From a virus: DNA of 40,662 nt. Location: positions 1 through 40,662 of IMG/VR virus record IMGVR_UViG_3300044980_000059, one strand, 5' to 3'. Each line of letters begins with the position of its first letter. Positions within the stretch are counted from its first letter, which is position 1. The notes under the pieces are model-generated. The model made no database searches. It had not been told where the DNA came from and was given only the letters and a program-made list of their open reading frames with translations. Positions 2,636 through 31,554 of the stretch are shown piece after piece. Position numbers and translations under genes: made by a program.

Positions 2636-2871
2636 AAGATTTCGGCCAATGGCTGCGCGACGCGCCAATCCTCGTAGAGCCGCCCCTCAGTGATGCCGAG
2701 GCGCACATATTGGAGTTGGAGGAAGCGGGAGTTATCAACGTTCTGGCAGACGGCTTATTTGAGGCTCGTTGCCGCCGTTGCGGTGAATGGACCGAATTGC
2801 CGGTCGGCCCCGCCGAGATTGATGTTGACTACCAACACTATTGCGGCGGATCGCCAAGGTGCTGTCCATGA
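2632..2871 (+). CDS. small Cys-rich protein, possible zinc ribbon
   Basis: 79 residues starting MKDFGQWLRD. The N-terminal half is acidic and helical. The C-terminal half has a Cys-X2-Cys pair (in RCRRCGEW) and a later Cys...Cys-Cys cluster, together a possible zinc ribbon, though the second pair is not canonical. The ATG at 2632 is set by an ATGA overlap; the stop overlaps the next ATG in the same way. Confidence 0.7.
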   Translation: MKDFGQWLRDAPILVEPPLSDAEAHILELEEAGVINVLADGLFEARCRRCGEWTELPVGPAEIDVDYQHYCGGSPRCCP

Positions 2872-2972
2872 AACACCTCTTTCGCTGGCTCGACCATAAC
2901 CCGCTCATTGCGATGGTTGCAGGCTCCGCCGTCGCTTTCCTGATCCTTTACTATTCGCGAGGCTTTTTGTGA
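2868..2972 (+). CDS. 34-residue single-span membrane peptide
   Basis: Starts MKHLFRWLDH and is followed by one hydrophobic segment (residues about 12-29), positively charged before it, so probably N-terminus in the cytoplasm. It is bounded by ATGA at the start and overlaps the GTG start of the nuclease gene at its end. Function unknown. Confidence 0.55.
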   Translation: MKHLFRWLDHNPLIAMVAGSAVAFLILYYSRGFL

Positions 2973-5446: not shown

Positions 5447-5521
5447 ATGAACAGCAGCGACTGGGTATGCATTGCGATAGCTCTGTTGTTCGGGTTCTGT
5501 GCGGTTGTACATTTTCTTTGA
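5447..5521 (+). CDS. 24-residue membrane peptide
   Basis: Starts MNSSDWVCIA and is almost entirely one hydrophobic segment. It fills the gap before the cytosine methyltransferase, whose GTG start lies 8 nt after its TGA; the ribosome site of that enzyme overlaps this stop. Its own ribosome site is weak (GGTGA). Placement fits the other tiny membrane peptides of this operon, but evidence is limited. Confidence 0.35.
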   Translation: MNSSDWVCIAIALLFGFCAVVHFL

Positions 5522-5528
5522 GGTGAGA

Positions 5529-10841: not shown

Positions 10842-11954
10842 TTAACGGCGCCGGCGGCCGTAAATCCATCCGAATGCAGCGTTCGTCGAAACAGCGAAAT
10901 TAGACTGAACAACCAGATATACCGGGGTTGTGGAGGCGAATCTCTCTGTTACGCATCCTGCTGAAGATCCTATCGAGATTCCCGCAGCGACCGCATATGG
11001 AAGGTTGACATATGTCGTGTTTGCAGTAAGCGTGGGAATCGTAGCTGAAGTCAGGCTTATGGCTGTTGCAAAGGCTGCTTGTGTAGTGGTACCCGCTGGG
11101 AGCGTAACAGTCTCTCCACACACATCCCAGTCCCCAGCAGTCAACGAAATGGAGGTGACATTGGCCGGCACTGTGCTGGATATGCTGACGGCCGATCCGC
11201 CAGTGACGGTGCTTTGAATGATCTCGCCTACACTGCCTGCGGACGGCGCGTTATTCGTCGTTGTGCCAACAATACCTGCAGTTTGACTGGGCGTGATCGA
11301 TCCTCCAGTCGTCAAATCCCCGCCATCGTCGACAGTGATTGTCGCGCCGCTTCCCGCATTGTTCAGGATGCGAAAGCTTCCATTGAAAACCTGAAGATAT
11401 TTGTTGGGCGTCGTTGATCCATTGCCCTCCAGTTCAATGGCAGCACCCGTAGACGTATTGCTCGTGGCATTAACGATGATCGTGCTGCCTGACGTTGCGG
11501 CATTCGTGATGCCCAGGACACCGCTCAATCCATCCGTCAGGATGATGGCGCCGGTCGAGTTCGAGACAGAAATTGGACTGTCGGTATAGGTTCCCGACAC
11601 ATAGCGAGATAGCTGGAATGTCGACGACGAAGAGGGATTCCCCCACGACCAGCGATTCGATCCATTCGACTGAAAATTCAGATTCGTCTGGTTTGACCCA
11701 CTCGTATCATTCAGCGTGAGCGCTGCATTGCTATAACTGACGCTCACTGCGCCGGTGAATGGCGCCCCCGACAGCAATGCGCATCCTGAGCATGCCGAAG
11801 GAACCCCCCACCCCGGCGCGCTGGTTGGGCCGGTCGATACGACTGCCTGACCGCTAGTCGAACCGGTTGGATTCAAAAGTTGGACCGGCAATTCGGTCGC
11901 GCCGAATGCAACCGATGCGCAGAGCGCGAAAAGCGAGGCAAGGAGGCGTTTCAT
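10842..11954 (-). CDS. tail-fibre-like protein with signal peptide
   Basis: 370 residues; ATG at 11954 with GAGGAT upstream, 9 nt after the tailspike stop. Residues 1-19 look like a secretion signal: Met-Lys-Arg, a Leu/Ala-rich core, then Ala-Phe-Gly-Ala. The body is Ser/Thr/Gly-rich beta sequence. The C-terminal 140 residues contain the LTAGDWDVCGE motif found in C-terminal domains of phage fibre proteins and end in four arginines. Gene order and composition suggest an adhesin or fibre component. A cleavable export signal on a virion protein is unexpected and is taken up separately. Confidence 0.75.
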   Translation of the reverse strand: MKRLLASLFALCASVAFGATELPVQLLNPTGSTSGQAVVSTGPTSAPGWGVPSACSGCALLSGAPFTGAVSVSYSNAALTLNDTSGSNQTNLNFQSNGSNRWSWGNPSSSSTFQLSRYVSGTYTDSPISVSNSTGAIILTDGLSGVLGITNAATSGSTIIVNATSNTSTGAAIELEGNGSTTPNKYLQVFNGSFRILNNAGSGATITVDDGGDLTTGGSITPSQTAGIVGTTTNNAPSAGSVGEIIQSTVTGGSAVSISSTVPANVTSISLTAGDWDVCGETVTLPAGTTTQAAFATAISLTSATIPTLTANTTYVNLPYAVAAGISIGSSAGCVTERFASTTPVYLVVQSNFAVSTNAAFGWIYGRRRR

Positions 11955-11963: not shown

Positions 11964-14168
11964 TCAGGTATTAAAGGCGATGGAGATGTTTTGCGAATCG
12001 GTCGCTGTGCCAGCCTGATTCACGCATGCAAACGAGAATGCGCTGGCCGTCTGACTCATGATCGTATAGCTGATCGAATCGTTTCCGGTGCGGTCCAGAC
12101 TGATATGCGGAACGTAAGCGGCGCTCGGGAATGCCTGGTTAAACGTGACCGTATAAGCTCCGGTTCCTGTGCGCGCCAGTGTGCAGCCTTCCAGCACGAT
12201 TGCGGAAAGCGTCGCGCCGTTGAACAATGCCTGCGCCTGTGCGCGGCCTGAGAAGAATGGCTGAGGCAGCGACGTTGTTTCGTTCCATGTGTTGCCGCCA
12301 TTATCGATGAAACGAACCGCTGATGAACCGCCGACCCAGAACGGTCGCGCGGCAGACGGTACATAGCTGCCGGCCGAGAAGAACTGGTTACCTTCGAGCA
12401 GGACCGTCACCGGGCCGCCGCCGCTCGATGTGATCGAAATGTTGTTGTTCGTGTAGAACGAACTCTGCGCCCGAATGAACAGACACCCGCGGATCAGGAC
12501 AGTGAGCGGCGAAGAAGTCGGATTGTCGATCGAGATATCGGCGATGCCTGCGTTCTCTTCGAAGTAGCAGTTATCGAAGACAATCGGCCCCGCGTTGCCA
12601 TACGCACTGACTTCGGCGACGACAGCGCCTGTTGCATTGTTTGCCTGCGTACCACAACTCTCGAACGTGCAATCGCGAAACGAATTGTTCGAACCGACCG
12701 CGATGCCATAGACGCCGGCCAGCGTGTTGTTCTGGAACGTGCACGCATCGAAATTGATCGCATTGCATGCGCCCTGTGCATTCGTCGTGAGCTGCACGCC
12801 ATACTGGTTATATCCGAAGATGCACTTCGAGACCTTGCCTGTGTAGCAGCTTTGCAAGTTCAGGCCGATGGTCATGTACTGGATATAAATATCCTCCAGC
12901 TTGAACCATGCCTTGTTCTGCATGTAAATGCCGCTATTGATCGCCGGGTTATAGGCATTGTTCTGCAGCGTGAACTTCGAGAGGGTATCGAGCCCGAGCA
13001 GTCCTTGGCCGGCCCCGGCCGTGCTGCCACCAGTCATGGTGATGGCATAGCCGGTACCCGAATAACCGAGGATCGTATTGGCCTGACTTTCACCATAGAC
13101 CGAAATGCGCTGCGACGGCGCGCCGGGGATCGGAAATCCTGACGCGCTGTAGTTGACCGTGATGCCGGTGGCGAACAGATACTGGCCCACCGGCATCTTG
13201 TAGGCGTTCAGGCCATTACTCCAGATCAACTGGAGCGGCACAGAATCGTCCGTGGTGTTGTTCGCTGCCGCAGCGAAGTCCTTGGCATTCAACGATCGAG
13301 AGAGACGCGCCTGAAGCGATTCCGCAACGGCCCCAGTGATCGGCGCGGTATAGGAAATCTTCATGCTCTGGATGCCAGCGCCGGAGGCCACGGATGCGTC
13401 AGTGACCGTACCGACACCGGGCGTCCCAATCGTCGCCGTTGTGCCACCCTTTACATAGACCTCTTGCACGCCCACCGGGATTGGGGCATTGAACGTCAGC
13501 GTGTAATTGTTCAGGCTGAACGTGTCTTCGCCTTGCGCGGCCGAATCGAAATTCACCCACAGATTGGACTTCGCGCCATAAAAGCCGACCAGCGTCAGGC
13601 TCGTGCTGAAGCCGGGAGCGAACTGATTGGTTCCTGCAGCCGCCATTGACTCGGCACCGACCGTCTGCGACGTGCTAACAGTCCACGAGGTACCGGAGCC
13701 GGCCGTGATCGTCGTGCCGGTTGTCACGCCAGAGCCGAAGAGCGTTTGGCCGATGGCAATCGTGCCGGTCACACCGCTGACGGTCAGCGTGTTCCCGGTG
13801 ATCGAGCCAGTAAAGGTCGGACCCGCCAGAAATGGCCCTTCGTCGGTCATCTGGCCGGTTGCTTCAGCGCCTTCGGCGGTGACGTTCTCCGCGACCCAGA
13901 TCTGGTTGCCATGCGAATCGGACAGCGTGATCGTGTAGGTCACACCGGTTTGCAGGAAAAGCTGGCTTGAGATGCCCGAAGAATTCGAAATTTCGCCGCG
14001 CGAGTTTAGCGGAATAGGGTTGGGCAGAGGCGTCGCGCCCATCGAGTCCTGAAAAGCCGGATAGTTGACGCCCCCTACCTGAGTCAGGAGACTGCCTCCC
14101 ACGTTCATCTGACCGGCATTGTTCAGGAACTGAAGGATCAGCGGCGGCGCGAGCGCAACAGTGCTCAT
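11964..14168 (-). CDS. tailspike with beta-helix (pectate-lyase-like) domain
   Basis: 734 residues. Residues 1-100 are a particle-binding-like domain with the NPIPLNSRGEI motif. Residues about 115-180 are a small beta insert (TVSGVTGTIAIGQ). Residues 183-245 are a beta module also present in the 20326-21129 protein. From about residue 290 a tailspike-type start (SLNAKDFAAAANNTTDDS) leads into a right-handed parallel beta-helix rich in Asn and small residues. The last 90 residues are a jelly-roll-like tip. Such spikes bind and often cleave surface polysaccharide. The substrate cannot be read from sequence. Confidence 0.9.
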   Translation of the reverse strand: MSTVALAPPLILQFLNNAGQMNVGGSLLTQVGGVNYPAFQDSMGATPLPNPIPLNSRGEISNSSGISSQLFLQTGVTYTITLSDSHGNQIWVAENVTAEGAEATGQMTDEGPFLAGPTFTGSITGNTLTVSGVTGTIAIGQTLFGSGVTTGTTITAGSGTSWTVSTSQTVGAESMAAAGTNQFAPGFSTSLTLVGFYGAKSNLWVNFDSAAQGEDTFSLNNYTLTFNAPIPVGVQEVYVKGGTTATIGTPGVGTVTDASVASGAGIQSMKISYTAPITGAVAESLQARLSRSLNAKDFAAAANNTTDDSVPLQLIWSNGLNAYKMPVGQYLFATGITVNYSASGFPIPGAPSQRISVYGESQANTILGYSGTGYAITMTGGSTAGAGQGLLGLDTLSKFTLQNNAYNPAINSGIYMQNKAWFKLEDIYIQYMTIGLNLQSCYTGKVSKCIFGYNQYGVQLTTNAQGACNAINFDACTFQNNTLAGVYGIAVGSNNSFRDCTFESCGTQANNATGAVVAEVSAYGNAGPIVFDNCYFEENAGIADISIDNPTSSPLTVLIRGCLFIRAQSSFYTNNNISITSSGGGPVTVLLEGNQFFSAGSYVPSAARPFWVGGSSAVRFIDNGGNTWNETTSLPQPFFSGRAQAQALFNGATLSAIVLEGCTLARTGTGAYTVTFNQAFPSAAYVPHISLDRTGNDSISYTIMSQTASAFSFACVNQAGTATDSQNISIAFNT

Positions 14169-16804
14169 TATGGATTCCCCTTTGCGTTCTTCGTTAACTG
14201 GTTCAGCGGCACGCTTTTCAGGCCAGCGCCTAGCTCAAGCGATTTGCCGACTTCTTTTGCGTTAGCGCGGCGTGCGAGGGCTTCGCGCGTCCATGTGCCT
14301 ACCGGCACGCCATGCGCTGCGACATTGGCCGCGCCTTCGGCTGCGGATTTGGCGGCATTGGCTGCTGAAGCGACAAACGTGTTGCTGTTGTTCACATAGC
14401 TGCCGCGCGGCTGTTCCTGCGTGTAGCGCGCCACGTTGCCCAGCTTCTCGACGGTTTGCGAAGCATCGGGACCGAGTACGATGCGCGTCTTGTCGCCGAG
14501 GTTCTGGATGGCCTTGTTGAGTCCTGCCTGACTGATATTGCCGGTGCCGGTACGCAAATCCACGCCGGCCTGCTGCCGGATATGATCCATCAGTGCCGAT
14601 GCCACCAGCTCCTGATTGACCGGATCGTTGGACAGGTTCTGCATCATGTTCTGCACGTTTGCCGTCTTGCCCCCGGCGATGTACTTGCGCGCGAAGTCAT
14701 CAGCCAGCGGAGAGGGCTCGCCAACGGGCGTAATGTCGTTCACAGCGGCCTTGTATGCCGGATCCGCATCCATCGCCTGAAATCGGGCGCGCGCGCTTGC
14801 CTGAGCCGTTTTGTAGGCCGAGAAGGCATCCACGCCGGCGGCGGACGGATCGAGCCGCGAATTGATTATGCTGTCGCGTAACGCGCCGATATCGTGACGC
14901 ACTGAGCCATCCGTGGCGCTGCGCATTGCGCCCGAGAGCGTCTTGTCGATATCCATCAGGTCGCCGACATTCATCGGGCGAACATTCGAGCCGTTGACCT
15001 CAAAGCCGGCCGGCAGGGACACCTGATTGGCAGCCGCGTCGCGAAAGATCTGTTGCACATTGGCCGGCAGCGCATTGAAGCGGGTTGGGCCGATCTGTGA
15101 GGCGAAATCTCGCATCTGTGGCGCCGCATTCACAATGGCGGGCGCACCATCCGCGCCGCGTGCGTGCGCATACTGCTCGGAAATCTGCTGCGTGATTGGC
15201 GCGTCCATCTGCTTGTAGGCGTCAACAAGCGCCTGCCCAGTCGGCGCACCAGATGGCACATTGACATTGGGCGAAACCTGATCGCGCAAAGCAGTAAGGT
15301 TGTCCGCGATCTGCCCGTTCTGGACATTGAAGCGCGCGGCCAGTTCGGGATTTTTGCCGCGGGCATTCATTTCCTGCGAAAGCAGATTCACATCGCCGCT
15401 TGCCTGGCCGGCGGTGAGTTCGACCGGCACCGGCAACGAGCCGGCTTCAATGTGGCGGCCGGCCGCGACCGGATTAAGGGTGCCGGCCTGTTCCGCAGAG
15501 GCAATCTTCTGGACCAGGGAATCGGGAACGCCTTCGGCAGCGGCCTGCTGCGCGAACGAAGCACCCGCCGCACCTACGCTACCGCGGCCGGCATTGACCG
15601 CAGCCGCTTGTGTCTGAGTAGCGGCAAGATTGGCCGCTGCCTGCTCTTCCGGCGTCCTGAGTCCTGTTGCGACGCCCACAGCATTGCCGAAGTCGCTAGC
15701 GGTCTCGCCGGCCGCGCGCGCCGCATTTCCAACGGCTCCGGCTGCGCCGCGCGCTGCACCCGCGACCGCCCCCGGAATCTGCGAAACGAGGTGCGCCGCG
15801 CCGGGAACCACGGCCTCAACCGCCTGCCCAGCGAGCGGGATACCGGCTTTGATCGCGCCGGGGGCGGCCAGCGCCAGCGAGCCAGCCATATTGCCAACGT
15901 CCTGCGCTGGCAGACCGGTTGCGCCAGCGACCGCATTCACGCCTTTGTTGACGATGCCGCCAACGGCCTGTTGCGCGCGCTGCGTTATCTCGTTCTGATA
16001 TTCAGGTGTGTTCGTCACGCCAAAGGCATTGCCGACAGGATGCACTGCGCCGCCGAACTGCGCGGCCTGCGCGCTCGCTTCTTCAGGCGTCATGCCCGAG
16101 GCGCGCGCAAGTGCATACGTCCCTTGCTGCGCCACCGCGCCGGGAGCACTGAGAACGGTATCGGCCAGTCCGGCAGCAGAACGGCCAAGGCCAGAGAGAA
16201 AGCCGCCGGCCGGTGCCTGCTGGCCGGGCTGTTGAGGCGGTGTCACAGCCGGCGTTTGAGTTGCGCCTTTTGCGCCCTGCTGAAGTGTCGAGAACAGATC
16301 CGACATCGGCCCGGCTGGGGCGGCGGGTTGCGCGCCGGCATTCGACTGTCCCGGCATCGTAGGTTCGGCCGGCACGCCGTTCATGGCCTTGGCGATATAG
16401 GCGGTAGGGTCGGCAGTCTTGAAGCCGCCATAGGCCTTCAGCGCGCCCTGATAGGTGCCACCGTTCTGCTGTTTGAGTTGCTGGATGTAGTAATCGGCCG
16501 CCGCACGCGACTGCTGCGGATCGAATGGATCGAATTTGACGCCCTGACCGCGCAGCATCGCAACGGTCGAGGGCGCGAACTGATACGGGCCCATGGCCTG
16601 TGTCGTCTTGTTGACCGCGAGCGGATTGCCGCTGCTTTCCTCGTCCTGCAGATTATCGAGCAGCTGCGGCGGCGTCCCATAGCTCTTGGTCGGATCGAAA
16701 CCGGTCGCCGCAGGCGCGGCAGATTGCGGCGACGCAGCGGCAGGAGCGGCACTCGGCGGCGCATTGGGATTGCTGCTCTGGATCGTAGCGAGCAGGTCGT
16801 CCAT
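14168..16804 (-). CDS. ejection protein with lytic transglycosylase domain (P22 gp16 position)
   Basis: 878 residues, start overlapping the previous stop as TAATG. After an Ala/Pro-rich N-terminus, residues 48-130 form an SLT-type lytic transglycosylase domain: catalytic Glu in DEESSGNP, then AMGPYQF and the helical ADYYIQQL. The remaining 700 residues are Ala/Gln-rich helices with a Gly/Ala-rich, membrane-active-looking stretch (about 290-370). It is the last and longest of three consecutive ejection-type genes, as gp16 is in P22. It probably enters the periplasm on infection, opens peptidoglycan and helps form the DNA channel. Confidence 0.85.
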   Translation of the reverse strand: MDDLLATIQSSNPNAPPSAAPAAASPQSAAPAATGFDPTKSYGTPPQLLDNLQDEESSGNPLAVNKTTQAMGPYQFAPSTVAMLRGQGVKFDPFDPQQSRAAADYYIQQLKQQNGGTYQGALKAYGGFKTADPTAYIAKAMNGVPAEPTMPGQSNAGAQPAAPAGPMSDLFSTLQQGAKGATQTPAVTPPQQPGQQAPAGGFLSGLGRSAAGLADTVLSAPGAVAQQGTYALARASGMTPEEASAQAAQFGGAVHPVGNAFGVTNTPEYQNEITQRAQQAVGGIVNKGVNAVAGATGLPAQDVGNMAGSLALAAPGAIKAGIPLAGQAVEAVVPGAAHLVSQIPGAVAGAARGAAGAVGNAARAAGETASDFGNAVGVATGLRTPEEQAAANLAATQTQAAAVNAGRGSVGAAGASFAQQAAAEGVPDSLVQKIASAEQAGTLNPVAAGRHIEAGSLPVPVELTAGQASGDVNLLSQEMNARGKNPELAARFNVQNGQIADNLTALRDQVSPNVNVPSGAPTGQALVDAYKQMDAPITQQISEQYAHARGADGAPAIVNAAPQMRDFASQIGPTRFNALPANVQQIFRDAAANQVSLPAGFEVNGSNVRPMNVGDLMDIDKTLSGAMRSATDGSVRHDIGALRDSIINSRLDPSAAGVDAFSAYKTAQASARARFQAMDADPAYKAAVNDITPVGEPSPLADDFARKYIAGGKTANVQNMMQNLSNDPVNQELVASALMDHIRQQAGVDLRTGTGNISQAGLNKAIQNLGDKTRIVLGPDASQTVEKLGNVARYTQEQPRGSYVNNSNTFVASAANAAKSAAEGAANVAAHGVPVGTWTREALARRANAKEVGKSLELGAGLKSVPLNQLTKNAKGNP

Positions 16805-18318
16805 TACTGGACGCTCCCGGTATTCGAAAGCTGCTGGAGTGCCTGCGCCTTCTTCATCATCGCGTTATAGCCAGGCGAGTTCAGGCCGCCTAGCTGCTTG
16901 ACGATAGCCTGCTGCTCCGTTGAATCGCCCGACTTGATCGCGTTGTAATACTTGAAGATGTTCGGGTCGAAATTTGCGCCCCACTGCTGGTCGAACTGGC
17001 GCTTGGCAATAACGCCTTTGGCCGGATCGGCCGCGATTGCGCGTTCCAGACCCGGCTGATAGGCCTGCACGCCGGTTGTCAGGGCGTCGTTCAGTTTCGT
17101 CACTTCCTTGATTGCCGCTGGCGTGTAACTGAGCGAACCATTCGCCTTGATCTGCGCATCGAGACCGGCATTGGTATTTGGACCCATCGACTGCGCGGCT
17201 TGCAGAGCAGAACGTTCGAGGCCTTTGCCTACCAGGTCATAGGCAGTCGCCGCATCGGAATTGGCGTCAAGGCCGAAGACGCTCAAGGCGTTACGCGCCT
17301 TCTGGCCGAGTGGGCCGGTGGCCGCCACATTGTCGATGTTCTGCAGCACAAGCTGATTATTCGTGTGCGCGGACGGTGCGTTGGCATAGGCCTGCCGTGC
17401 CTGTTCGCGCTCGGCGGAGAGGCCGGGAATTGCCTGCAGATCGCCAGGCGATGGGTTATAGACGTTCTGCGTCGGCGGATTCGTGACGCCTGTAATCTGT
17501 CCATTGCCGCCGCGATTGACCACAGCGAGGCCGCCCGATACAGGATTCGTCGTGAGTTGAGAACGCTCGCCGAGCGGAATGCCTTGCGCGATTTCAGGGC
17601 CAACCGGCCCGACCGGAGTAGCCGATAGCGGGTTGATATTCGACACCTGCACGCCGCCATTGGGCCCGGTCGAAGTGATCAACTGGTTTCCTTGTTGCGC
17701 AGCCGTAGTCGCGGCCGGCTGCAAAGCCTGCACACCTTTGCGGAGAATCTGGTTGCGCTGGTCCGGCGATGCGTTGGGGGGAATCGAGCCTACCGATTGC
17801 TTCGTGCTGTTGACGAAGGGCGCCAGATCGGGGTTCTGCTGCGCGAGCGTATCGAGGCGCGACATTACACCTGATGTATCCGGCTCACCGATGCCGGACG
17901 CCAGCACGCCGCTCACCGCCGCGCGCTGATCGTTCGTGAGCTTCAATGCGTCCGAATGATAGTTGTTGGCGTTATCCAGCGTCTGGATGATGCCTTGCTG
18001 CACAGCCTGTCCGGTGATTGGCAAATACTTATTGGCGAACTTGCTCACCGCCGGATAGTTCAGCGTGCCATCGGGATTCTTGATCGGATTCCCATCCGGG
18101 TCTTTACCGGACGAGAGCGCGCTCTGATAAAGCTGCCGCTCGTCGAGCTGCTGCTGTGCGCTTTGCGCGGTGCCGGCCCCAACCTGCAACTGCTGTTGCC
18201 CGAGCTGCAACTGCTGCTGCGCATTGGCGATGCCGAGAATGCCCGACAGACTCTGGATGGTCTGGTTGGGATTGGGCGGAGTGATCTGGTCCGCAACGGG
18301 ATTTCCGAAGTCCGGCAT
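16804..18318 (-). CDS. ejection protein (P22 gp20 position)
   Basis: 504 residues; it begins 2 nt after the gp7-like stop and ends in TAATG with the transglycosylase gene. The N-terminus is Gln-rich coiled coil (residues 25-65), followed by Ala/Asn/Gln-rich helices with few aromatics and no Cys. Composition, length and position between the gp7-like and gp16-like genes match internal head proteins injected with the DNA. No enzymatic motif seen. Confidence 0.75.
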   Translation of the reverse strand: MPDFGNPVADQITPPNPNQTIQSLSGILGIANAQQQLQLGQQQLQVGAGTAQSAQQQLDERQLYQSALSSGKDPDGNPIKNPDGTLNYPAVSKFANKYLPITGQAVQQGIIQTLDNANNYHSDALKLTNDQRAAVSGVLASGIGEPDTSGVMSRLDTLAQQNPDLAPFVNSTKQSVGSIPPNASPDQRNQILRKGVQALQPAATTAAQQGNQLITSTGPNGGVQVSNINPLSATPVGPVGPEIAQGIPLGERSQLTTNPVSGGLAVVNRGGNGQITGVTNPPTQNVYNPSPGDLQAIPGLSAEREQARQAYANAPSAHTNNQLVLQNIDNVAATGPLGQKARNALSVFGLDANSDAATAYDLVGKGLERSALQAAQSMGPNTNAGLDAQIKANGSLSYTPAAIKEVTKLNDALTTGVQAYQPGLERAIAADPAKGVIAKRQFDQQWGANFDPNIFKYYNAIKSGDSTEQQAIVKQLGGLNSPGYNAMMKKAQALQQLSNTGSVQ

Positions 18319-18320: not shown

Positions 18321-19157
18321 CTAGCTCCCCGCCGCGAGCAACCCATTCGTGCCCTGGGCAGTACCGTTGAATTCACTTCCGCTGGAAAGTCCACTGGAAG
18401 CCGAGTTGGCATTCAGGATACTGCTGAGCGCGATCGAATTGCCCACGCCACTAATGCCGCCGCTCAGGGCGTTCGCGGAGCCGATCGTACCGGCCGCCTG
18501 CGACGCGCCCGCACCGGCAATCGCCTGCGCAGTGCCCGTGCCGAGTGTTGCACCCGCAGAGCCGGTATTGCTCGCCGCGTTCTGGCCGAGACCGGCGATT
18601 GCGGAGAGGCGCCCAAAAATACCCTGCTGCTGCGATTCGAGCGAATTGAGGTTGGTGCTGTACTGGCTCTGCGCCTGATTGAAGTAGTTGTTGTAATACT
18701 GCTCGGCATTGCCGGTGGCATAGTTCGTCAGCGCCTGCAGCGCAGGCCCGGACAACGCACCGACATTCGGCGCGATCGCATTCTGCGTCTGCTGCAAGCC
18801 CTGACTTTGCGAGAACTGATAGCCCGGCGAGCTCGTAATGCTTGACGGATTGAACGAAAACGGCCCGAGCGTCTGGTTCAGATAACCGCTCGGCAAGCCA
18901 TTCACACCCGGCCCAGGCGTCAAGCCAAGCAAGTCAGATAGCGCGCCAGTTGCATTCACGCCTGCCGTCATGAACGGCTGTTCCTGCTGCGTGATGGTAT
19001 TGAACTCGTTTTGCTGGATCTGGGCGGCCTCTTCCTGTGCGCCTGCCTGAGTATTGGCGGCGCTCGTCGCGGCGTTTGAGCTGATCAGCGAACTGCCGAC
19101 TGAGGCCGCGGCCCCGGCAATCCCAATGATGGCCCCGGCAGAAAGACCTGCGCTCAT
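18321..19157 (-). CDS. ejection/DNA-transfer protein (P22 gp7 position)
   Basis: 278 residues from ATG at 19157 (ATGA overlap with the SET gene). Residues 4-35 are Gly/Ala-rich and membrane-active-looking. The centre has the SPGYQFSQSQGLQQTQNAIA...GALSGPALQAL and YYNNYFNQAQSQY patterns typical of phage DNA-transfer proteins with a helical lipid-interacting core. The C-terminus is Gly/Ala/Ser low complexity. It is first of three ejection genes and presumably leaves the virion early during infection. Confidence 0.8.
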   Translation of the reverse strand: MSAGLSAGAIIGIAGAAASVGSSLISSNAATSAANTQAGAQEEAAQIQQNEFNTITQQEQPFMTAGVNATGALSDLLGLTPGPGVNGLPSGYLNQTLGPFSFNPSSITSSPGYQFSQSQGLQQTQNAIAPNVGALSGPALQALTNYATGNAEQYYNNYFNQAQSQYSTNLNSLESQQQGIFGRLSAIAGLGQNAASNTGSAGATLGTGTAQAIAGAGASQAAGTIGSANALSGGISGVGNSIALSSILNANSASSGLSSGSEFNGTAQGTNGLLAAGS

Positions 19158-19984
19158 GATGCCTCCTTGACTGGCTTGAACCCCGCGCCATTCACGCTCA
19201 TGGCCTGTCGATAATCCACGGTCAGTTCTTCGCCGCGGCGGATCACGCATAGCGCGCGCGCATCTAGGTCGCCGTTGTCGCGAAGCACAAATTCAACATT
19301 GGGACGGCATGAATGATTAATGAAGCGGCCGGCCGGCGTGCGCTTTCCATCGATCCTGACCGGCGCAAAGTCATCGGATTGATCGATCGTCTTGCGCGCA
19401 AACATGCCGAGGCCAGCGATTGCCGAATCGCGGACTTCTACTGCCTCAACCCATTCCGGGAACGGCGCCCGATCGGCTTCGTTTTCCACAAGCCGCATGA
19501 CGAATCCTTCCGTTAGGCCATATTCGGTCAGGAAACGCTGATAGTCGTCGCGTGCAAGCTGCGCGAGCATCTGGACGTTCTGCGCTCCGCCGATCAGTTC
19601 TGCGCTGGTCGATTCGGTGATCTCTTCGATGAGCTGGTCAATGTCCGTGACATTCGTGACGTGGTAGGTGGTCCAGACCGTTTCCTCGATCGCATAGCCG
19701 ACGCGCTTGGCGCCAGCCTTGGAGACGATCGTACAAGGCGCGGCAAGTTCGCGCATGCCTTCATCGGTCGAGACAACAATGCGGCCCTTCGAGACCGTAC
19801 ACAGATGCTCATGGCGATGCACGGCGCCAGTGATCACCACGCCCGCTGGGATGGTCATCTCGCGTGCGGCCATGCCGGGAGCGAAATAATGGCGCACAGG
19901 ACAATCGACCTGCGGCAGCTTCTGGATTTCGCGCTCGAGCCGCTCAACAGCCTCGCGATCCACGCTTTTCGCCACGGCATTCAT
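19154..19984 (-). CDS. cupin-SET domain fusion protein, probable protein methyltransferase
   Basis: 276 residues; start and stop are both fixed by ATGA overlaps. Residues 28-112 form a small cupin-like beta barrel with His56-X-His58-X-His60 and a later His108 as metal-ligand candidates. Residues 115-170 are helical. Residues 180-262 form a compact SET domain: Gly-Leu-Gly-Met-Phe (191-195) for SAM, Arg-Phe-Ile-Asn-His-Ser-Cys-Arg-Pro-Asn (220-229), and Glu-Glu-Leu-Thr-Val-Asp-Tyr (252-258) with the catalytic Tyr. All three core SET motifs are intact; the I-SET insert is very short and there is no Cys-rich post-SET. SET enzymes methylate lysine in proteins. It lies where P22 has gp14, immediately before the ejection genes, so virion assembly or injection into the host is possible (inference). 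Confidence 0.85.
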   Translation of the reverse strand: MNAVAKSVDREAVERLEREIQKLPQVDCPVRHYFAPGMAAREMTIPAGVVITGAVHRHEHLCTVSKGRIVVSTDEGMRELAAPCTIVSKAGAKRVGYAIEETVWTTYHVTNVTDIDQLIEEITESTSAELIGGAQNVQMLAQLARDDYQRFLTEYGLTEGFVMRLVENEADRAPFPEWVEAVEVRDSAIAGLGMFARKTIDQSDDFAPVRIDGKRTPAGRFINHSCRPNVEFVLRDNGDLDARALCVIRRGEELTVDYRQAMSVNGAGFKPVKEAS

Positions 19985-20316
19985 TGAATCACCACGCCGG
20001 AAACGGTGAGCGTGACGGAGCCCGCGACGCTGGCGAAAGCATGGAGCTGATAGCCGGTAGGGATAACTACGCCCGCAAGTTCTGGCGAAACGTAGGTTTC
20101 GCCCGGGGCAAGAGTGCGCGCGTTGATCATGGTCAGAACTCCGAGTGCTCCGCCGGAAGTGATGCCGGCAGTAATGGTGATTGCACTCGCTGCGGTGTTG
20201 CAGAACACCGCACGTCCGATTTGCCCAGACGTGTTCGTACCCGGAGAATACACGTTCGCATCTGCCGCGCCAAGATCCACGGTCAAAAGCAGTAAGGCGG
20301 GTGTAATTGTGGTCAT
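19981..20316 (-). CDS. small virion-region protein, unknown function
   Basis: 111 residues; ATG at 20316 with GAGGAATTGCG upstream. Thr/Ala/Gly-rich beta protein with no charge clusters or Cys motif, resembling small stabilisation or decoration proteins. Its stop shares ATGA with the cupin-SET gene, suggesting coupled expression. No family recognised. Confidence 0.7.
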   Translation of the reverse strand: MTTITPALLLLTVDLGAADANVYSPGTNTSGQIGRAVFCNTAASAITITAGITSGGALGVLTMINARTLAPGETYVSPELAGVVIPTGYQLHAFASVAGSVTLTVSGVVIQ

Positions 20317-20325: not shown

Positions 20326-21129
20326 TCACGAAGGAAGGAACGCGACTGTCGGCGCGCTCGAATAAATGATCTGGACCTGATCCAGACGACGCAGCGGGAC
20401 CAGTCCGCCGCTGGTTGATCCGGCCACCGCGCCGCTCGCGCCTTTCACGAAGACATTCACGGTGCCAACAGGAATCGGCGCGTTGAATGTCAGCGTTGTG
20501 CCACTGAGGGTGTAGGTGTTTGCGCCCTGCTCTCCAGAATCGAATGCCACCCACAGATCGGCTGCGCTGCCATAGTCCTGCGACAGCGTTAGAGAAGTCG
20601 ATACGCCGTCCGTGAAATCGACGCCCGCTACGAAGCCCGGCTGGCCGCCAGAACCCTTCTCATCGGTGAAAGTCGAGATCGCGGTGGTGCTGCCGGAAGT
20701 AATGCCGGTGGCAACCGAAACGCCTTGCCGGATGATCGTCACTGCCGAAACTGTACCGCCTGTGACCGATAGCACGCCGTTCGCGAGCGCGGTATAGGTG
20801 AAAGGCGATGCCCCGGGCGTGACGGACTGCACGGGTTGCGCGGCCGGAACAGGATCCTGAAGTGGCGTATTGGCTAGCAGCGCACTCAGGTTCCCGATCT
20901 TGCGAAAGGCCTGCGGAATGTCTGCCGTTTGCGCGAACAGGTTGTTTGCGTCGAGAGAATCGTAAGGGGACGCTGGCGTTCCGCCGCCCGATTGCCCAGT
21001 TCCAAGAACTGCCTTCGAAATGTTGTACGCCCACAGATACCAGTTGATATCCATGTACTGGGGCTTGTTTCCCGGGTTCGCAATGAGCGGCACGCTCTGC
21101 TGCGGGATCAGGTCGGGAAGGCCGCTCAT
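20326..21129 (-). CDS. virion protein sharing a beta module with the tailspike
   Basis: 267 residues; ATG at 21129 (ATGA overlap with the gp10-like gene). The N-terminal 90 residues (MSGLPDLIPQ..., MDINWYLWAYN) look like a tail-binding helical segment. Residues 100-160 are a beta repeat. Residues 170-235 (STSLTLSQDYG, DLWVAFDS, TLTFNAPIPVG) closely match residues 183-245 of the tailspike at 11964-14168. It occupies the position of the P22 tail needle gp26 but does not show the needle's coiled-coil pattern. Probably a tail or fibre-adaptor protein. Confidence 0.7.
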   Translation of the reverse strand: MSGLPDLIPQQSVPLIANPGNKPQYMDINWYLWAYNISKAVLGTGQSGGGTPASPYDSLDANNLFAQTADIPQAFRKIGNLSALLANTPLQDPVPAAQPVQSVTPGASPFTYTALANGVLSVTGGTVSAVTIIRQGVSVATGITSGSTTAISTFTDEKGSGGQPGFVAGVDFTDGVSTSLTLSQDYGSAADLWVAFDSGEQGANTYTLSGTTLTFNAPIPVGTVNVFVKGASGAVAGSTSGGLVPLRRLDQVQIIYSSAPTVAFLPS

Positions 21130-22757
21130 GCTGCGCTGAACGCCTTGAGAGTCGCGCCCACCAGATCGCGGTTCACCGGATCGATGACCTCGATATCCAC
21201 CACGTTATCCCGGCCCCAGCCGAGCTTTCGCCACATCGTGCGCGTGCGGTATTGACCGATCTGACCCATCGGCGCATAGAGAGGATCGCCGAATGTATGG
21301 CCGCCATCGCGCGAGAGATGCAGTTTGCACTGCGGGTTCGAGCCCATGCCACTCGCCGGCGCCTGTCCGACATTGAAGTCTAACTGCAGGCTCTGCATCA
21401 AAACGCGGCCGCGCTGCCCCTTATCCCACACGTGCGGCGCGCGGCGCTTGGCAAGCAGCGGCCATCCCGCATCGGTATAGGAATTGCGTGTGAGCCAGTA
21501 AATAGCGCCGTTCTCATAGTCGCCGGTGATCCGCATACCGGCGAAGTTCATGTAACAGTTCGAGCGCTCGCGATGAAACGCCTTGGCATAGGGATCATAG
21601 GACGCGCGCTTGTGCAGGAGACCCGATTGCCCGTCATACACCCACGTGACATCTACGGTCGGAAAGGTCAGCACATAGAACTCGTGCGTATCTTCCTGAT
21701 AGGTGTAAGCGATGGCGTCGTCGGTGACCGGATAGGTCGCCACCTCTTTGCCAAACGATGGCGTCGAGACCACTGTGTCCTGGAATCCCTGCGTCAGGAT
21801 GATTACGTTCTCGCCGCGCTCGGACCGTCCGAACCACATCAGGCCTTCCTGCCCCTGCGTGCCGAAGCGCGAGACCGAGTGCTTTGCCTTGCAGCCCGCC
21901 TGAATGAGCGTGCCTACAATGCGCTGAAATGCGAACGTGGCGCCCACCCCACCCGGCGCGCCGCCCGCGTTGTACCAGATCTCCGTGGTCTTGTCGCCAA
22001 TCAGCCAGAGCAGTTCCTTGTTCTCCATCACGGCCACGAGATTGTCGCTCGCTGCATCCTTCAATGCGAAAAAGAGCGCGCTGAAGGTCAGGCCATACTC
22101 TTCCGCATTGGAGTAGAAATCCTGCGTACCGGGCTTGTTGAAGATCCACCAGCCGTCGATATAGGCAACCGTATCGGCTCCGAGGAAGTTGGGATCGGTG
22201 ATCTGTGCGAATTTCTGCGTCGAGATGGTGTAGTAGTAACCGTAGGGGCCGTCCACAATGACCGCAGTGTTCCCCTGATTGTTGTCGCGGATGCATACCG
22301 GGCCACTGCTCGTCAGGAGCGTGCCTACCGCCTTCAGCGAAAGCGTCGGCCAGGTGTTCGAGGTCTGCGTCGCCGTGATCAGGTAGCACGTGTTTCCGAT
22401 GACAACGAGAGCGGTGCTATCGACCGTCGCGCCAGCGCCACCGGTATCCTCATTCGCGGGAAGCTCCCAGAAGCCGCGCACGGGCAGCGCCGGGCCGGAA
22501 TAAGGCATCGGCCATACGGTCTGCGTGTTTGTGAATCCGGGTGCGCCAGCGCCTGCCACCGGAGCGACAGCGAGCTGCGTCAGGCCGGGTGAGCCGAGAA
22601 GACCAAGCACTTCCTTGGAATTGCCCGGGTCGATTTCGGGATACCAGTTGATCGACATCTGGTCATCCTGGATCGGGTTCGGCGCGGCGTCGTAACCGCC
22701 GACAATTCCGAAGTTCCCGAACATCGCCAATGGGCCGGGATTTTCACCTGAAGGCAT
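21126..22757 (-). CDS. P22 gp10-like packaged-DNA stabilisation (tail hub) protein
   Basis: 543 residues. Opens with the family pattern MFGNFGIVGGYD...DDQMSINWYPE followed by LLGSPGL. Central beta-propeller-like strands carry ENKELLWLIGDKTTEIWYNAGG and GLMWFGRSERGENVI. The C-terminus has the LHLSRDGGHTFGD motif. In P22 this protein closes the portal-gp4 channel and carries the tail. The length is slightly above P22 gp10 (472). It directly follows the gp4-like gene with shared stop/start bases, as expected for this module. Confidence 0.88.
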   Translation of the reverse strand: MPSGENPGPLAMFGNFGIVGGYDAAPNPIQDDQMSINWYPEIDPGNSKEVLGLLGSPGLTQLAVAPVAGAGAPGFTNTQTVWPMPYSGPALPVRGFWELPANEDTGGAGATVDSTALVVIGNTCYLITATQTSNTWPTLSLKAVGTLLTSSGPVCIRDNNQGNTAVIVDGPYGYYYTISTQKFAQITDPNFLGADTVAYIDGWWIFNKPGTQDFYSNAEEYGLTFSALFFALKDAASDNLVAVMENKELLWLIGDKTTEIWYNAGGAPGGVGATFAFQRIVGTLIQAGCKAKHSVSRFGTQGQEGLMWFGRSERGENVIILTQGFQDTVVSTPSFGKEVATYPVTDDAIAYTYQEDTHEFYVLTFPTVDVTWVYDGQSGLLHKRASYDPYAKAFHRERSNCYMNFAGMRITGDYENGAIYWLTRNSYTDAGWPLLAKRRAPHVWDKGQRGRVLMQSLQLDFNVGQAPASGMGSNPQCKLHLSRDGGHTFGDPLYAPMGQIGQYRTRTMWRKLGWGRDNVVDIEVIDPVNRDLVGATLKAFSAA

Positions 22758-23764: not shown

Positions 23765-24622
23765 CTAGCAATGCGTCACGACGCCGTTGACGGTAGCAAA
23801 GCTTGAGCTGGGCGTGCCAGTGCATGTGACGCCGCCGGGAAGGGCGCCAACTACCGGCCAGAGCCCGGTTTCGCCATCGGTCTGAAACAGGATCGAGGTT
23901 GAATTGCTGGTGCCTTGCGGAAGAACGTAACCGGTGCCTGTCGTGCCATCAGCCCCATTGCTCAGATAGAGCGTGACCGTAAATGCTCCGGTCGTGTTGT
24001 TGATGAAACTTGGACGACGCGATGCCGTGTTGTAAGTGCCATTTGCGATGATGAACGTGACATTGCTGGTGAGCGCGCCGGTGAAGATCACGTTCCGGTC
24101 GCCCGGCGGAATCGGCGTCGCCATGATCTGGGCGCCGTTCGTATAAGCAGTGCCGCCATACAGAATCTGCGCTGCGGTTACCGTTCCCCCACCGCCGATC
24201 GAGGTAATGCGCAGCGTCGCATCGTCATTGCCACCAGCGAGAGTAATCAGATCGCCAACCGCGTAGCCAAGGCCCGGCACCGCGATCGTCAGGATGCTCT
24301 GGATGACACCACCAGACGTAAAGACCACTGGCGAGAAACCGGAACCTAGCGTCGCCTGGTTATATGTGCCTCCTGCCAGCGTCAGAGGAACAGTCTGCGT
24401 GGAACGGATGATCTGCTGGTTCGCGAAGGCATCGGTTGCAACCAGCGTCGTGTTATCGGTCGTCGGCTGGGTGGTTGCATGCAGCACGCCGCCAGTAATA
24501 CATGGCGAAGCAATGGCGGCATTGAGATTCGCTGCAGTCAGGATCGTGTCGGGAGAAAACGTGCTGCATTGCGCCCAGGTGAGAGAGGGCAAAAGCAGCA
24601 ACAGGGCGAGGAATTTTTTCAT
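23765..24622 (-). CDS. virion-region beta protein with a signal peptide
   Basis: 285 residues; ATG at 24622 (ATGA overlap). Residues 1-18 are a textbook export signal: Met-Lys-Lys, a seven-residue Leu/Ala core, and Trp-Ala before Gln-Cys. A DTILTAANLNAAI motif common in phage fibre-like proteins follows. The rest is Gly/Thr-rich beta sequence, and the C-terminus (GGVTCTGTPSSSFATVNG) ends in Cys. It sits between coat and gp4-like genes. Whether it is exported, or the leader only mimics a signal, cannot be decided here. Confidence 0.72.
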   Translation of the reverse strand: MKKFLALLLLLPSLTWAQCSTFSPDTILTAANLNAAIASPCITGGVLHATTQPTTDNTTLVATDAFANQQIIRSTQTVPLTLAGGTYNQATLGSGFSPVVFTSGGVIQSILTIAVPGLGYAVGDLITLAGGNDDATLRITSIGGGGTVTAAQILYGGTAYTNGAQIMATPIPPGDRNVIFTGALTSNVTFIIANGTYNTASRRPSFINNTTGAFTVTLYLSNGADGTTGTGYVLPQGTSNSTSILFQTDGETGLWPVVGALPGGVTCTGTPSSSFATVNGVVTHC

Positions 24623-26502: not shown

Positions 26503-27867
26503 TTAACCCGAGACACGAGCGCCGAGCGAACGGTAGAGGCTTGAGAATCCATAAGCCACGTCCATCCGGGTCGGTTCCGCATCGTTGTTGATGGTGTACT
26601 GCGTCGCCACGCGAATCGAAAGGCCTAGGTCCTCGTCGAATGCGCGGCTCGCCTCGACCGCAGTGCGCGGCAGCGGCAGATCCACAAAGGCCAGAGCGAA
26701 GGCGTCGCGATGGAAATACAGATTTTCCGTCGAGGCGGTACCAGCCGCAGCGCCGCCGTTGATCGTCACCGCCGGCGTGCCGGTGAATGCCGAGCCGGCC
26801 GCGCAGTTCTGGAACTGACCGCCGATGATCGCCACTTCGCCGATCGTCAGCGAAAGCGTGCCAGTGCCGCTGGAAGTGTAAAGGCCGGTCATCGCGTTGA
26901 AAGTGCCGGCCGCGAGCGTCGCGGGCGCAAAGTTCGGGCCACCAGGCGCGGCGGTACCGGTCATCTGCGCATAGCCACCCGGCGGCAGCACCACAAACTG
27001 CTTGAGCGTGTTGCCGTAGCGGCCACGGTTCTGCGGGTTCACCGGGTAGAGACCGGCGATCTGGATCGTGTCGCCCACATAGCATTGGGCGGCCGTGTTC
27101 GTCAGCCCGGTGATATTGAGCACGCCAGTTTGCGCCCAGCCCGAGGTCAGAAGGCCAGAGCCGGCGGCCGCAGTCGTCACACCAGCGAGCACCGGCGTAC
27201 CGGTCAGCGTGCCAGTCGTGTAGTTGGCGATGTTGGGATCTTCAAACCAGTCGGCGCCGGCGGTCTTCTTCGCAATCATGCCGGTCTCGAAGAAGTCGCT
27301 GATCTGCGCCTGCGGGTTATAGAGACCCTTGAGCGAATCGGCCATCGAGCTTGAGGCCAATGGATGCAGCACCGAGGTCGGAATCAGGCCCTTCGGCATG
27401 CCTTCCGAAGCCAGAATGGCACGCGCATCGGAGAAGGTCTTGAAGATCGTCGGCGTGGTACCAGGCGTACCCAGACGGTTCGCCGTGTTCTGCATCGCGA
27501 AATACGCGCCGTCCGAGTCAATCCGGTTGCCCACCGCGACGCAAGCTGGGTGAATGAAGCGCTCTTCGAAGTCGTCGATGTCCAACAGCATGTTGATGGT
27601 GTTGAACTGGATGTCGACGTGGAACTGGTACAGGATGTTGACCGGTACGTAGTTCTCCGTGCTGGGCTCGACGTTCAGCGCGGAACCGAACGTACCCAGG
27701 TAGCGCGGCGGGAGGCGAACGTTACACGTTGCGCCGATCTTGCGGCCTTTCTGGCCGAATTCCTTATCGTATTGACGGTTGAACTTGTCCGTCACCACGC
27801 ACATGTTCGCCAGAACCGGGAGTGCCCGATTGGTGATCTGGCTGATTGTGAGAAGCTGGTTTGCCAC
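26503..27867 (-). CDS. major capsid protein, P22 coat (gp5) family
   Basis: 454 residues from a GTG at 27867 (GGGGA upstream) giving MANQLLTISQ, the form typical of this family; a further GTG at 27885 would add six residues. The N-arm and E-loop region (NREYD-like NRQYDKEFGQKGRKIG, RLPPRYLG) is followed by HK97-fold strands. A large insert (about residues 210-380, Gly/Thr-rich) is in the place of the P22 I-domain. The C-terminal hallmark NLYFHRDAFALAFVDLPLP then leads to a basic beta end. It assembles the icosahedral head around the scaffold protein. Confidence 0.92.
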   Translation of the reverse strand: MANQLLTISQITNRALPVLANMCVVTDKFNRQYDKEFGQKGRKIGATCNVRLPPRYLGTFGSALNVEPSTENYVPVNILYQFHVDIQFNTINMLLDIDDFEERFIHPACVAVGNRIDSDGAYFAMQNTANRLGTPGTTPTIFKTFSDARAILASEGMPKGLIPTSVLHPLASSSMADSLKGLYNPQAQISDFFETGMIAKKTAGADWFEDPNIANYTTGTLTGTPVLAGVTTAAAGSGLLTSGWAQTGVLNITGLTNTAAQCYVGDTIQIAGLYPVNPQNRGRYGNTLKQFVVLPPGGYAQMTGTAAPGGPNFAPATLAAGTFNAMTGLYTSSGTGTLSLTIGEVAIIGGQFQNCAAGSAFTGTPAVTINGGAAAGTASTENLYFHRDAFALAFVDLPLPRTAVEASRAFDEDLGLSIRVATQYTINNDAEPTRMDVAYGFSSLYRSLGARVSG

Positions 27868-27935
27868 GGTATTCCCCAAGCGCACAAAGGCGCAAAGCGT
27901 TGCAAATGCGCAGCTTGAGGACCACCGGGGACGGC

Positions 27936-28961: not shown

Positions 28962-29344
28962 TACTTTTCTCCATTCGCCAAACGGTCTTTAAGGGCGTAT
29001 CCCAAGAGTGGCCAGATTTTCTGCACGGCATTAGCTCGGGCGATCTTCCGGCCAATCTCTGCGTCGAAATTCTCGGGCGATGCGCATGCGCTTTCGCCTG
29101 TCACCGTGAAGCCGTTGTGCAATATAAGCACGCAGAAGGTAAGTAAATCGAGAGAACCAGATTGAAGCACGCGGCTCGCTTCATTTGCGCCTGCTATGCC
29201 ATCTGCTGCCGTGAAATAATGTTCGCAGGCGATTGCCGCATCAATGTCCGCAGGCGTCACACGCAAAGCCGTCTTTCCATTGCGTTGGATCTCGTCTTCG
29301 ATTTGTTCATCGTCACTGCGTCGCGTCTGAGTTGCCATGTTCAT
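28961..29344 (-). CDS. N4 gp49 / Sf6 gp66 family protein
   Basis: 127 residues. The C-terminal region carries the full family signature NGFTVTGESACASPENFD...IGRKIA...AVQKIWPLLGY. The family is widespread in tailed phages with no proven role. ATGA/TAATG-type overlaps link it to portal upstream and scaffold downstream, so it is expressed with head proteins. Start ATG at 29344; Met3 is a possible alternative. Confidence 0.9.
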   Translation of the reverse strand: MNMATQTRRSDDEQIEDEIQRNGKTALRVTPADIDAAIACEHYFTAADGIAGANEASRVLQSGSLDLLTFCVLILHNGFTVTGESACASPENFDAEIGRKIARANAVQKIWPLLGYALKDRLANGEK

Positions 29345-31554
29345 TCCTGCTCTCCCGAAGGTTTTTGCTGCGCTGCGGCCCGATCAGCCGCCGAATTCAT
29401 GTTGTCGTTGTTCATCGAGGCGGATGCCATCGAGGCGTCATGCAGAAGTTGCTTTTCAAGCTGGGCGGCTTCATGGTTGCGGCCGGCAGTCGAGTCGATG
29501 ATCTTGCCGCCAGCGCGGATCTCTTCGACCTTGAGCGCCGTATCGGCGCGCGTCTCGGTATCGTGCGCCTTGACCACAGCCGCCATATGCGCCTTCTGGA
29601 TGCCGAACTTGACCTCCTGCTGGGCCGCCTGCAGCGCCTGTTTGAGCTGCGCATTCTCGTTCGCGAGCGATTGAACCACGCTCTTCGCGCGGCTCGACAG
29701 GCCATCCATGACCTTTTTCAGGCCTTCCGGGTTGTTGGCCTGAAGCCGATCGGCCAATTCCTGCATGTATGGATGATCGATCGAGCGGAAGACCAGATCC
29801 GCGCCCTGCTTGGCAATAACTTCGGCTAGCGGCGGAATCTTGATCATGTCCACGAGGTTCTGTGCACCTTCCTCACGCTTCGTCTCATAGCCCGGGCCGG
29901 TGTCCATCACCACGTCATAGGTGCCGACAGAGACATCGTTCTTGATCTGGTTGATGGACTCGCCTTCTTCACCACCATGGTCATTGATCTTGACCATCTG
30001 CGGTGTCGAATCCTCGCCGATGATTCGCTGCATGCGGCCAGGTTCGCTGTAGTAGACCGGAATCCATTCGGTCATCACGCGCCAGCATTGCGCAATAGCT
30101 TGGGTCAGGTGATCGTAGTACTGGAAGTGCGACTGATCGGATAGCCATTGGCGTCGGTTGATTGCCTTGCCCGACACAACGACACCTTGTTCGTCCTGAC
30201 CCGGCTCGTTCGGCATGCCCGCCACTGCCACGAGGTTCGAGCGCATGCCCTGCACGAATTCGCTGAAGCCTGCCTCGATCTGCGCGGGTTCCTGACGCGC
30301 GGGCGGCGGAATCATGATCGGCAGTGAGCCGGTCTCGATCACCACAGGCTTGTAGGTGAGCACCGAGTATGGCTTCTGGTTCGCATCATCCCATTCGGGG
30401 TGACCATCGAGCTGGCCTTCTGCCGCGACCCATGGTGCCTTTGGAGCAAGCCCCAGACGCTTGATCTTGGCGACCTCGCCGTAGTTGACCATGCGCTGTG
30501 GATCCATCATGGCGTCCACCATGCCGCGCCGGCGGATCATGCCGTCGATATCGACCGAGTTGCCGTCGACGCGGAATACGGGGATGTACTGGCCGGGGAT
30601 GATCTGGCGCTCCAGCATTACTAACCCATTGAGCCGGAACCACTCCACGCGACGCTTAACCGAATCGCGCTCGCTGATGATGCGTGCGCCTGCTTTTCCC
30701 AATACATCGACAGCATCCTCCAGCGCAACAACTTCGCCTGTTATGCGCTTGAGTTCGGACTGATAGAGCATGTGCTCTTTGCCGGCTTTGTTGACGATCT
30801 GGTAGAGCTTCTCCGGCACTTCCCGAATGCGGAAGTACTCGGCCAGCCGCACGTGCTCCTTGCTCTCCCAGTCGAGCCGTTCGCCATTGTGGTCGATATC
30901 GTTCCAGTTGACGTTCTTCGCGTTCGGATAGCAGCGCTTATACTCCTGCCGCTTCATCGGAGTCGAGATGATGCACCAGTTCTGATCGGCACCGCTGGGC
31001 ATGATGGCGCCCGGGTCCATGTAGACAGAAAAGATGTTCCTGATCGGCAGGATTCGCAGGTCCTTTCTAAAAGAGCGTGGCCCCTCGTACTCAGCCACGA
31101 GTCGGAAGTATCCCTCTCCAGCGTCCACCGCCCGCTCCGCCGCCAGATCATAAGCAATGTCCGCTTCTGACCGATATTCAACATGGCGACCGATTCCATT
31201 GATGATCTCCGCGAGTTCGATGTCCGCGCCATCTCCAACCGGGTGGCACTTGCCGCGCGGGCGCTGCTGCTTGATGTTGTTGACCACGCGCCGTACGAAG
31301 GCATCGGTGAGGTTGATCGTCAGTTCAGGCGAGTCCTCAGATGCGCTCGTGATGACATCGTGATCCCACTGGTCACCCTCGCGGAACAGCATCGCGGCTT
31401 TGGCGCGCTTGCGGTTCTCGGAATAGGCCTCAGTCGCGATCTTGAGCCGGTCTTTGGCTTCCTCCCAGATATCCTGATCGGTGATGGCCGCAAACTCGCG
31501 GTCCTCTTCAGTGCGCTGAACGGGCTGATTACCGCCGGTGCCTTCATCGGCCAT
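29341..31554 (-). CDS. portal protein, P22 gp1-like
   Basis: 737 residues, close to P22 portal (725). The N-terminal pattern (RLKIATEAYSENRKRAKAAMLFREGDQWD, then LTINLTDAFVRRVVNNIKQQRP) and the middle (YMDPGAIMPSGADQNWCI...GVVVSGKAINRRQ) match P22-like portals. The C-terminus is a long coiled coil (about 620-700) like the P22 barrel. It forms the dodecameric DNA gate at one vertex. ATG at 31554, 4 nt after the preceding small gene. Confidence 0.93.
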   Translation of the reverse strand: MADEGTGGNQPVQRTEEDREFAAITDQDIWEEAKDRLKIATEAYSENRKRAKAAMLFREGDQWDHDVITSASEDSPELTINLTDAFVRRVVNNIKQQRPRGKCHPVGDGADIELAEIINGIGRHVEYRSEADIAYDLAAERAVDAGEGYFRLVAEYEGPRSFRKDLRILPIRNIFSVYMDPGAIMPSGADQNWCIISTPMKRQEYKRCYPNAKNVNWNDIDHNGERLDWESKEHVRLAEYFRIREVPEKLYQIVNKAGKEHMLYQSELKRITGEVVALEDAVDVLGKAGARIISERDSVKRRVEWFRLNGLVMLERQIIPGQYIPVFRVDGNSVDIDGMIRRRGMVDAMMDPQRMVNYGEVAKIKRLGLAPKAPWVAAEGQLDGHPEWDDANQKPYSVLTYKPVVIETGSLPIMIPPPARQEPAQIEAGFSEFVQGMRSNLVAVAGMPNEPGQDEQGVVVSGKAINRRQWLSDQSHFQYYDHLTQAIAQCWRVMTEWIPVYYSEPGRMQRIIGEDSTPQMVKINDHGGEEGESINQIKNDVSVGTYDVVMDTGPGYETKREEGAQNLVDMIKIPPLAEVIAKQGADLVFRSIDHPYMQELADRLQANNPEGLKKVMDGLSSRAKSVVQSLANENAQLKQALQAAQQEVKFGIQKAHMAAVVKAHDTETRADTALKVEEIRAGGKIIDSTAGRNHEAAQLEKQLLHDASMASASMNNDNMNSAADRAAAQQKPSGEQE

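Follow-up and report, generated by a model that had tools for sequence, protein, structure and literature searches.

The cupin-SET gene and its neighbors

The window analyzed here is the whole stretch of 40,662 nucleotides that makes up positions 1 to 40,662 of the IMG/VR virus record IMGVR_UViG_3300044980_000059. On its minus strand, running from 19984 down to 19154, lies the gene for a cupin-SET fusion protein of 276 amino acids (P0001), recognized from its open reading frame and translation, Pfam SET, phrog_34170 and an AF2 model. The sequence-only reading had placed a gene at 19154-19984, which is correct, and the strand is the minus one, since stop codons interrupt the plus strand there. 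Immediately upstream, at 19981..20316 (-), a small protein of 111 amino acids is encoded, for which a family search returned no match and whose stop overlaps the cupin-SET start. Immediately downstream, at 18321..19157 (-) and preceded by a strong AAGGAGG, is the gene for a gp7-like DNA ejection protein of 278 amino acids, which matches phrog_598, the family of P22 gp7, at E 3.1e-25. Both junctions are confirmed as four-base ATGA overlaps, in line with the translational coupling that had been proposed on either side, and the position directly before gp7 is indeed the slot of P22 gp14.

The other ejection genes follow on the same strand. A gp16-like third ejection protein with an SLT transglycosylase domain is encoded at 14168..16804 (-; 878 amino acids; PF01464, E 3.5e-10), and between it and the gp7-like gene lies a gp20-like second ejection protein (16804..18318, -; 504 amino acids), which was assigned by position and for which Pfam and PHROG searches found no family match. 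On the other side of the cupin-SET gene are a gp10-like head closure protein Hc3 (21126..22757, -; phrog_578, E 3.2e-83), a P22-type coat protein (26503..27885, -; PF11651, E 1.5e-25) and a P22-type portal (29341..31554, -; PF16510, E 1.2e-128). Two proteins of the virion block, at 23765-24622 (-) and 10842-11954 (-), begin with signal-peptide-like N-termini (MKKFLALLLLLPSLTWA; MKRLLASLFALCASVAFGA), which are unusual among virion genes.

Close relatives of the cupin-SET protein were found in Paraburkholderia genomes; phages of this kind are therefore probably temperate in Burkholderiaceae, and the present one is probably a P22-like phage of Paraburkholderia. One Paraburkholderia MAG holds two cupin-SET copies of different subtypes, probably from two prophages, and what had been taken for an internal stop in a second Paraburkholderia copy proved to be the natural end of that copy.

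Two predicted domains and their conservation

Both the cupin and the SET fold are predicted with high confidence. The cupin barrel spans residues ~30-108 (19661..19897, -), as delimited by AF2 strands, and it is matched by RmlC-like cupin barrels in Foldseek (E 5e-7, prob 1.00) and by phrog_12032, named 'short tail fiber protein', at 9e-60; its Pfam cupin score is 14.1 bits, under the cut-off of 27.2. Behind it comes a conserved helical linker at residues 137-166 (19487..19576, -; AF2 helices 137-154 and 159-166), and column counts show that D147 within the linker and D171 just past it are invariant. The barrel had been described as carrying a His-x-His-x-His motif, and while the fold is clear and the motif is present in this protein, it is not a feature of the family: among 64 relatives, position 56 is Q in 33 and H in 31, position 58 is H, T or F in 17 each, and position 60 is mostly His, so that of the conserved metal-binding histidines of cupins His60 alone is retained family-wide. 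For this reason it is unlikely, judging from the aligned residues, that the cupin acts as a metal enzyme across the whole family.

The minimal SET domain follows at residues 180-262 (19199..19447, -). Pfam SET, PF00856, matches the protein at E 1.4e-10 with 42 bits (cut-off 22.4), and a profile built from the relatives matches the KMT2A SET domain at 1.3e-12. The three core motifs that had been read from the letters, GLGMF, NHSCRPN and ELTVDY, are all there, and the domain carries G191 and G193, N223 and H224, E253, and Y258. With 67 aligned sequences, AF2 modeled the whole protein at a mean pLDDT of 89.4 and a pTM of 0.57, with SET strands from residue 182. The C-terminal half, modeled alone, had a pLDDT of 92.1 and a pTM of 0.85. 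The low pTM of the whole against the high pTM of the half suggests two rigid domains in a flexible mutual relation. When the C-terminal half was compared with solved structures by Foldseek, the best 50 PDB matches were all SET enzymes, vSET included, while the whole model drew RmlC-like cupins and the MLL1 SET domain at rank 31.

With the SET domains of KMT2A/MLL1 and PBCV-1 vSET (PDB 7u5v and 1n3j/3kma) the phage protein shares the SET fold, the GxG, the NHS and the catalytic tyrosine; unlike them it has no histone link, is fused to a cupin and sits in a tail operon. It also differs from KMT2A in that the SET-I region is almost absent. Profile positions 74 to 82 align with KMT2A chain residues 44 to 87, leaving ~7 positions between the motifs where KMT2A has ~42 residues, and the post-SET region is a short C-terminal helix only, so the canonical SET-I/post-SET substrate groove is missing. 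Such a groove is usual in canonical SET enzymes rather than defining, and PBCV-1 vSET, which also is compact, is an active enzyme. In the phage protein the peptide groove would have to be formed otherwise, perhaps by the conserved pre-SET helices or by a partner protein.

Nothing that the sequence-only reading had named as refuting it was observed: a SET fold is predicted, the motifs persist in relatives, and the residues for SAM binding are retained. Among 64 distinct full-length proteins, S187, G191, G193, R215, N223, H224, N229, E253 and Y258 are invariant, which keeps the GxG, the Asn-His pair, the catalytic tyrosine and the SAM-binding residues, and D257 is kept in 63 of the 64. Median dN/dS is 0.081 in the cupin, 0.081 in the linker and 0.092 in the SET domain; these values show purifying selection, and the near equality of SET and cupin indicates, at the level of sequence, that the SET domain is kept for function. 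The invariant residues and the low dN/dS together imply that loss of function is not the rule. These observations bear on the alternative that the SET domain is non-catalytic, binding SAM or a peptide and contributing nothing but binding or structure to a cupin morphogenesis protein. Although it would fit that SET-I, which belongs to the substrate groove, is nearly absent and that cupin-only forms manage without SET, binding alone would hardly demand that GxG, Asn-His, Glu253 and Tyr258 be invariant in 64 distinct proteins, and the solved structure of vSET is a fold match; we regard this alternative as unlikely. The earlier reading of a plausible methyltransferase tied to the virion module is supported.

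Distribution and gene slot

In a first scan the protein was encoded at nine viral-contig loci with 57-98% identity and at a tenth with 35%. An alignment-based scan of contigs from uncultured viruses gave at least 290 relatives, and another scan of uncultured viruses at least 351 loci. Of the 50,697 sequenced phage records, 11 contain a match to this SET subtype. The statement that SET domains are uncommon in phages thus stands for sequenced phages, but not for uncultured viruses. A scan with the cupin of Variovorax phage VAC_51 returned only 2 loci, both distant.

The same architecture is found over the full length of phrog_34170, a family of no known function (E 3.9e-61 over residues 6-263) whose description does not mention SET and to which no function or study is attached. 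The best viral fold match of the SET half (TMq 0.74) is UniProt A0A6J5PTS6, 'SET domain containing protein [uncultured Caudovirales phage]', likewise with no function or study attached. Rhodoferax phage P26218 gp30 (AKA60333.1) and Pseudoalteromonas phage PH1 ANY29560.1 are cupin-SET orthologues in the same slot at 35-36% identity, with records that read hypothetical or tail-fibre-like and leave the SET domain unrecognized. Our literature search for cupin-SET phage proteins found none. What is already known is that phage SET domains are auto-annotated in databases, and that one was mentioned in passing, in an S. maltophilia phage (PMC9025141); the cupin-SET architecture, its spread, its slot and its modular gain and loss were not found described in the literature searched. 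The same minimal RTPxG..NHS subtype occurs as a stand-alone 99-amino-acid SET protein (phrog_28741) in cyanophages P-RSM6 and P-SSM7, which lacks the cupin and varies in genome position, and similar small SET proteins occur in cyanophages and in a giant virus (100 amino acids). A link between stand-alone SETs and the tail module was considered and dropped, for that of P-RSM6 lies near gp25/gp6 but that of the myovirus P-SSM7 lies outside the tail genes.

In the slot that separates the tail-tube/gp10 gene from the gene for the first ejection protein, the cupin is constant and the SET domain optional. An orthologous cupin without SET (PHROG 12032/24280, PHA00672) occupies the same slot in phages such as Thalassomonas BA3, Variovorax VAC_51 and Sphaerotilus R1; cupin-only forms are found there in Vibrio, Thalassomonas and Dickeya phages and in T7-like Krylovirinae, so that the slot is kept across P22-like and T7-like phages. 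One exception is Alteromonas phage R8W, in which the cupin-only gene is flanked by those for the RNA polymerase and the connector. Comparison of gene order, which had been suggested as a check, thus bears out a conserved cupin slot: ~80 loci with the SET domain lie upstream of a gp7-like gene, and when cupin-SET and cupin-only loci are pooled, the downstream neighbor is gp7-like in 84 of 99, often overlapping by 4, 13 or 16 bases.

A tree of the cupins needs 6 changes of SET state, though with few columns and long branches only the minimum of at least 2, forced by the starred branches, is safe. Pseudoalteromonas PH1, which has the SET domain, clusters with BA3 and Vibrio 41E34.2, which do not, at 99% support. 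On these sequences the SET domain is an optional module, gained or lost at least twice. Among the matches listed, the closest relative without SET (L036, 4809-5453) is 64% identical in the cupin region, and its reading frame stays open beyond the upstream end, so that a product of 214 amino acids with a possible extra N-terminal part could be made.

In P22 and T7 the corresponding slot, before the first ejection protein, holds morphogenesis-type factors, P22 gp14 (DUF2824, phrog_651) and T7 gp13 (PF11090, phrog_308), the latter a predicted scaffold protein. Both belong to different PHROGs and are unrelated in sequence to the cupin or to SET; that the cupin is a P22 gp14 orthologue was rejected, as hhalign gave its alignment a probability of 0.1. 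In one contig (L026, 4436-4984) a T7 gp13-family protein (phrog_308) lies directly upstream of the cupin-SET gene; it has a weak GNAT match, under the Pfam cut-off, and related genes in other phages are labelled acetyltransferase or internal virion protein. In four other loci (L089, L097, L099 and L101) a long downstream protein replaces the gp7-like one. In the first two, on siphovirus-like contigs, a lambda-J-like tail-tip gene (phrog_31) follows immediately after the cupin-SET gene (2140-3066 and 800-1648, respectively), which in L089 is preceded by a gene for a tail protein (phrog_2048).

The names of the cupin families point to another possibility, namely that the cupin serves as a short tail fibre or binds the receptor, with the SET domain as an accessory fold in it. 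PHROG entries are called 'short tail fiber protein' and 'tail fiber adhesin', but no experimental source for the names was found in the literature searched, the cupin shows conservation (dN/dS 0.08) and not hypervariability, and a SAM enzyme outside the cell would be useless, which together make an adhesin very unlikely.

Candidate substrates and a proposed role

A methyltransferase modifying a virion protein had been suggested from the letters, and this is plausible for a protein in a virion module, but the coupled neighbors are poor candidates. Both genes flanking cupin-SET, 18321-19157 and 19981-20316, encode entirely lysine-free proteins (278 and 111 amino acids), whereas the gp20-like protein has 19 lysines, the gp16-like 27, the coat 10 and the portal 39. 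The gp7-like protein therefore cannot be a side-chain lysine substrate in this phage and was rejected as such, as was the 111-amino-acid protein; and because gp7 is lysine-free in a few other SET-bearing phages too, the nearest neighbor is not a general lysine substrate. A search for conserved lysines in relatives of gp20 and gp16 had alignable homologues in numbers of only 14 and 17, too few.

We propose, at what we judge an even prospect, a late-made protein-lysine methyltransferase that is held by its cupin near the tail and ejection machinery and methylates other virion proteins during assembly. The cupin half would be a morphogenesis or tail-interface protein, encoded by many short-tailed phages in the same slot, and the SET half an optional enzymatic module. 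Made late in infection, the protein would act as a SAM-dependent enzyme tethered by the cupin to the growing tail/ejection complex, where a SET domain lacking most of SET-I would present an open peptide groove and could methylate other virion proteins at one lysine or several. Candidate substrates would be the gp20-like and gp16-like ejection proteins, or tail or coat proteins, and not gp7; methylation may tune the assembly, stability or unfolding of virion proteins for ejection. The catalytic activity, the timing, the substrate and the benefit are all what we infer from the following evidence.

The SET fold with its catalytic residues, the low dN/dS of the SET domain and the late-operon, translationally coupled position favor this reading. 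The late-operon position, the conserved slot and the move to another tail module, seen in the SET-bearing branch beside the lambda-J-like tip gene, together favor action on virion proteins during assembly. By analogy, so does the slot in T7, filled by gp13, and the gp13-family protein beside cupin-SET. The lysine-free immediate neighbors and the P-SSM7 SET protein outside the tail genes argue against it, and the many same-slot cupin orthologues without SET mean that methylation is not generally required for this assembly step.

Alternatively, as had been raised at the outset, the cupin could pack the SET domain into the particle, to be co-ejected with the pilot proteins and to methylate a host protein early, with HU, EF-Tu, RNA polymerase or a defence protein as candidate targets. 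T4 Alt, which acts on a host protein with ADP-ribose early in infection, is a precedent. The gene adjoins ejection genes and the SET domain is optional on a possible virion protein, both of which fit such an effector, and in Cellulophaga early phage infection raises host protein methylation (PMC13288928). One SET-bearing branch, however, lies in a siphovirus-like tail module that lacks P22-type pilot proteins, and a virion-carried enzyme acting on the host, while possible, is rather unlikely, and less likely than action during assembly.

Lysine-methylation chemistry does occur in phages, which also favors action on virion proteins: the first report of methyl-lysine in virion proteins dates from 2026 and concerns phages encoding no known methyltransferase, and no phage enzyme was assigned to it (PMC13288928). 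The cupin-SET family, with hundreds of viral loci, would be a phage-encoded candidate enzyme for virion lysine methylation. It presents a eukaryote-like SET enzyme shrunk to ~80 residues, which a conserved tail/ejection-slot protein carries as an optional module. Stated most broadly, that a cupin-tethered minimal SET methylates tail or ejection proteins in building the ejection machine, or a host protein after ejection, is a tentative claim, which we place slightly short of an even prospect. If true, it would make cupin-SET, as far as the literature searched shows, the first protein methyltransferase encoded by a phage to be given a role in the virion. Cultured phages with known hosts carry cupin-SET, which makes phage protein methylation testable by one point mutation (Y258F).

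The same phage carries a second methyltransferase, a C-5 cytosine DNA methylase at 5499-6878 (+; PF00145, E 9e-49).
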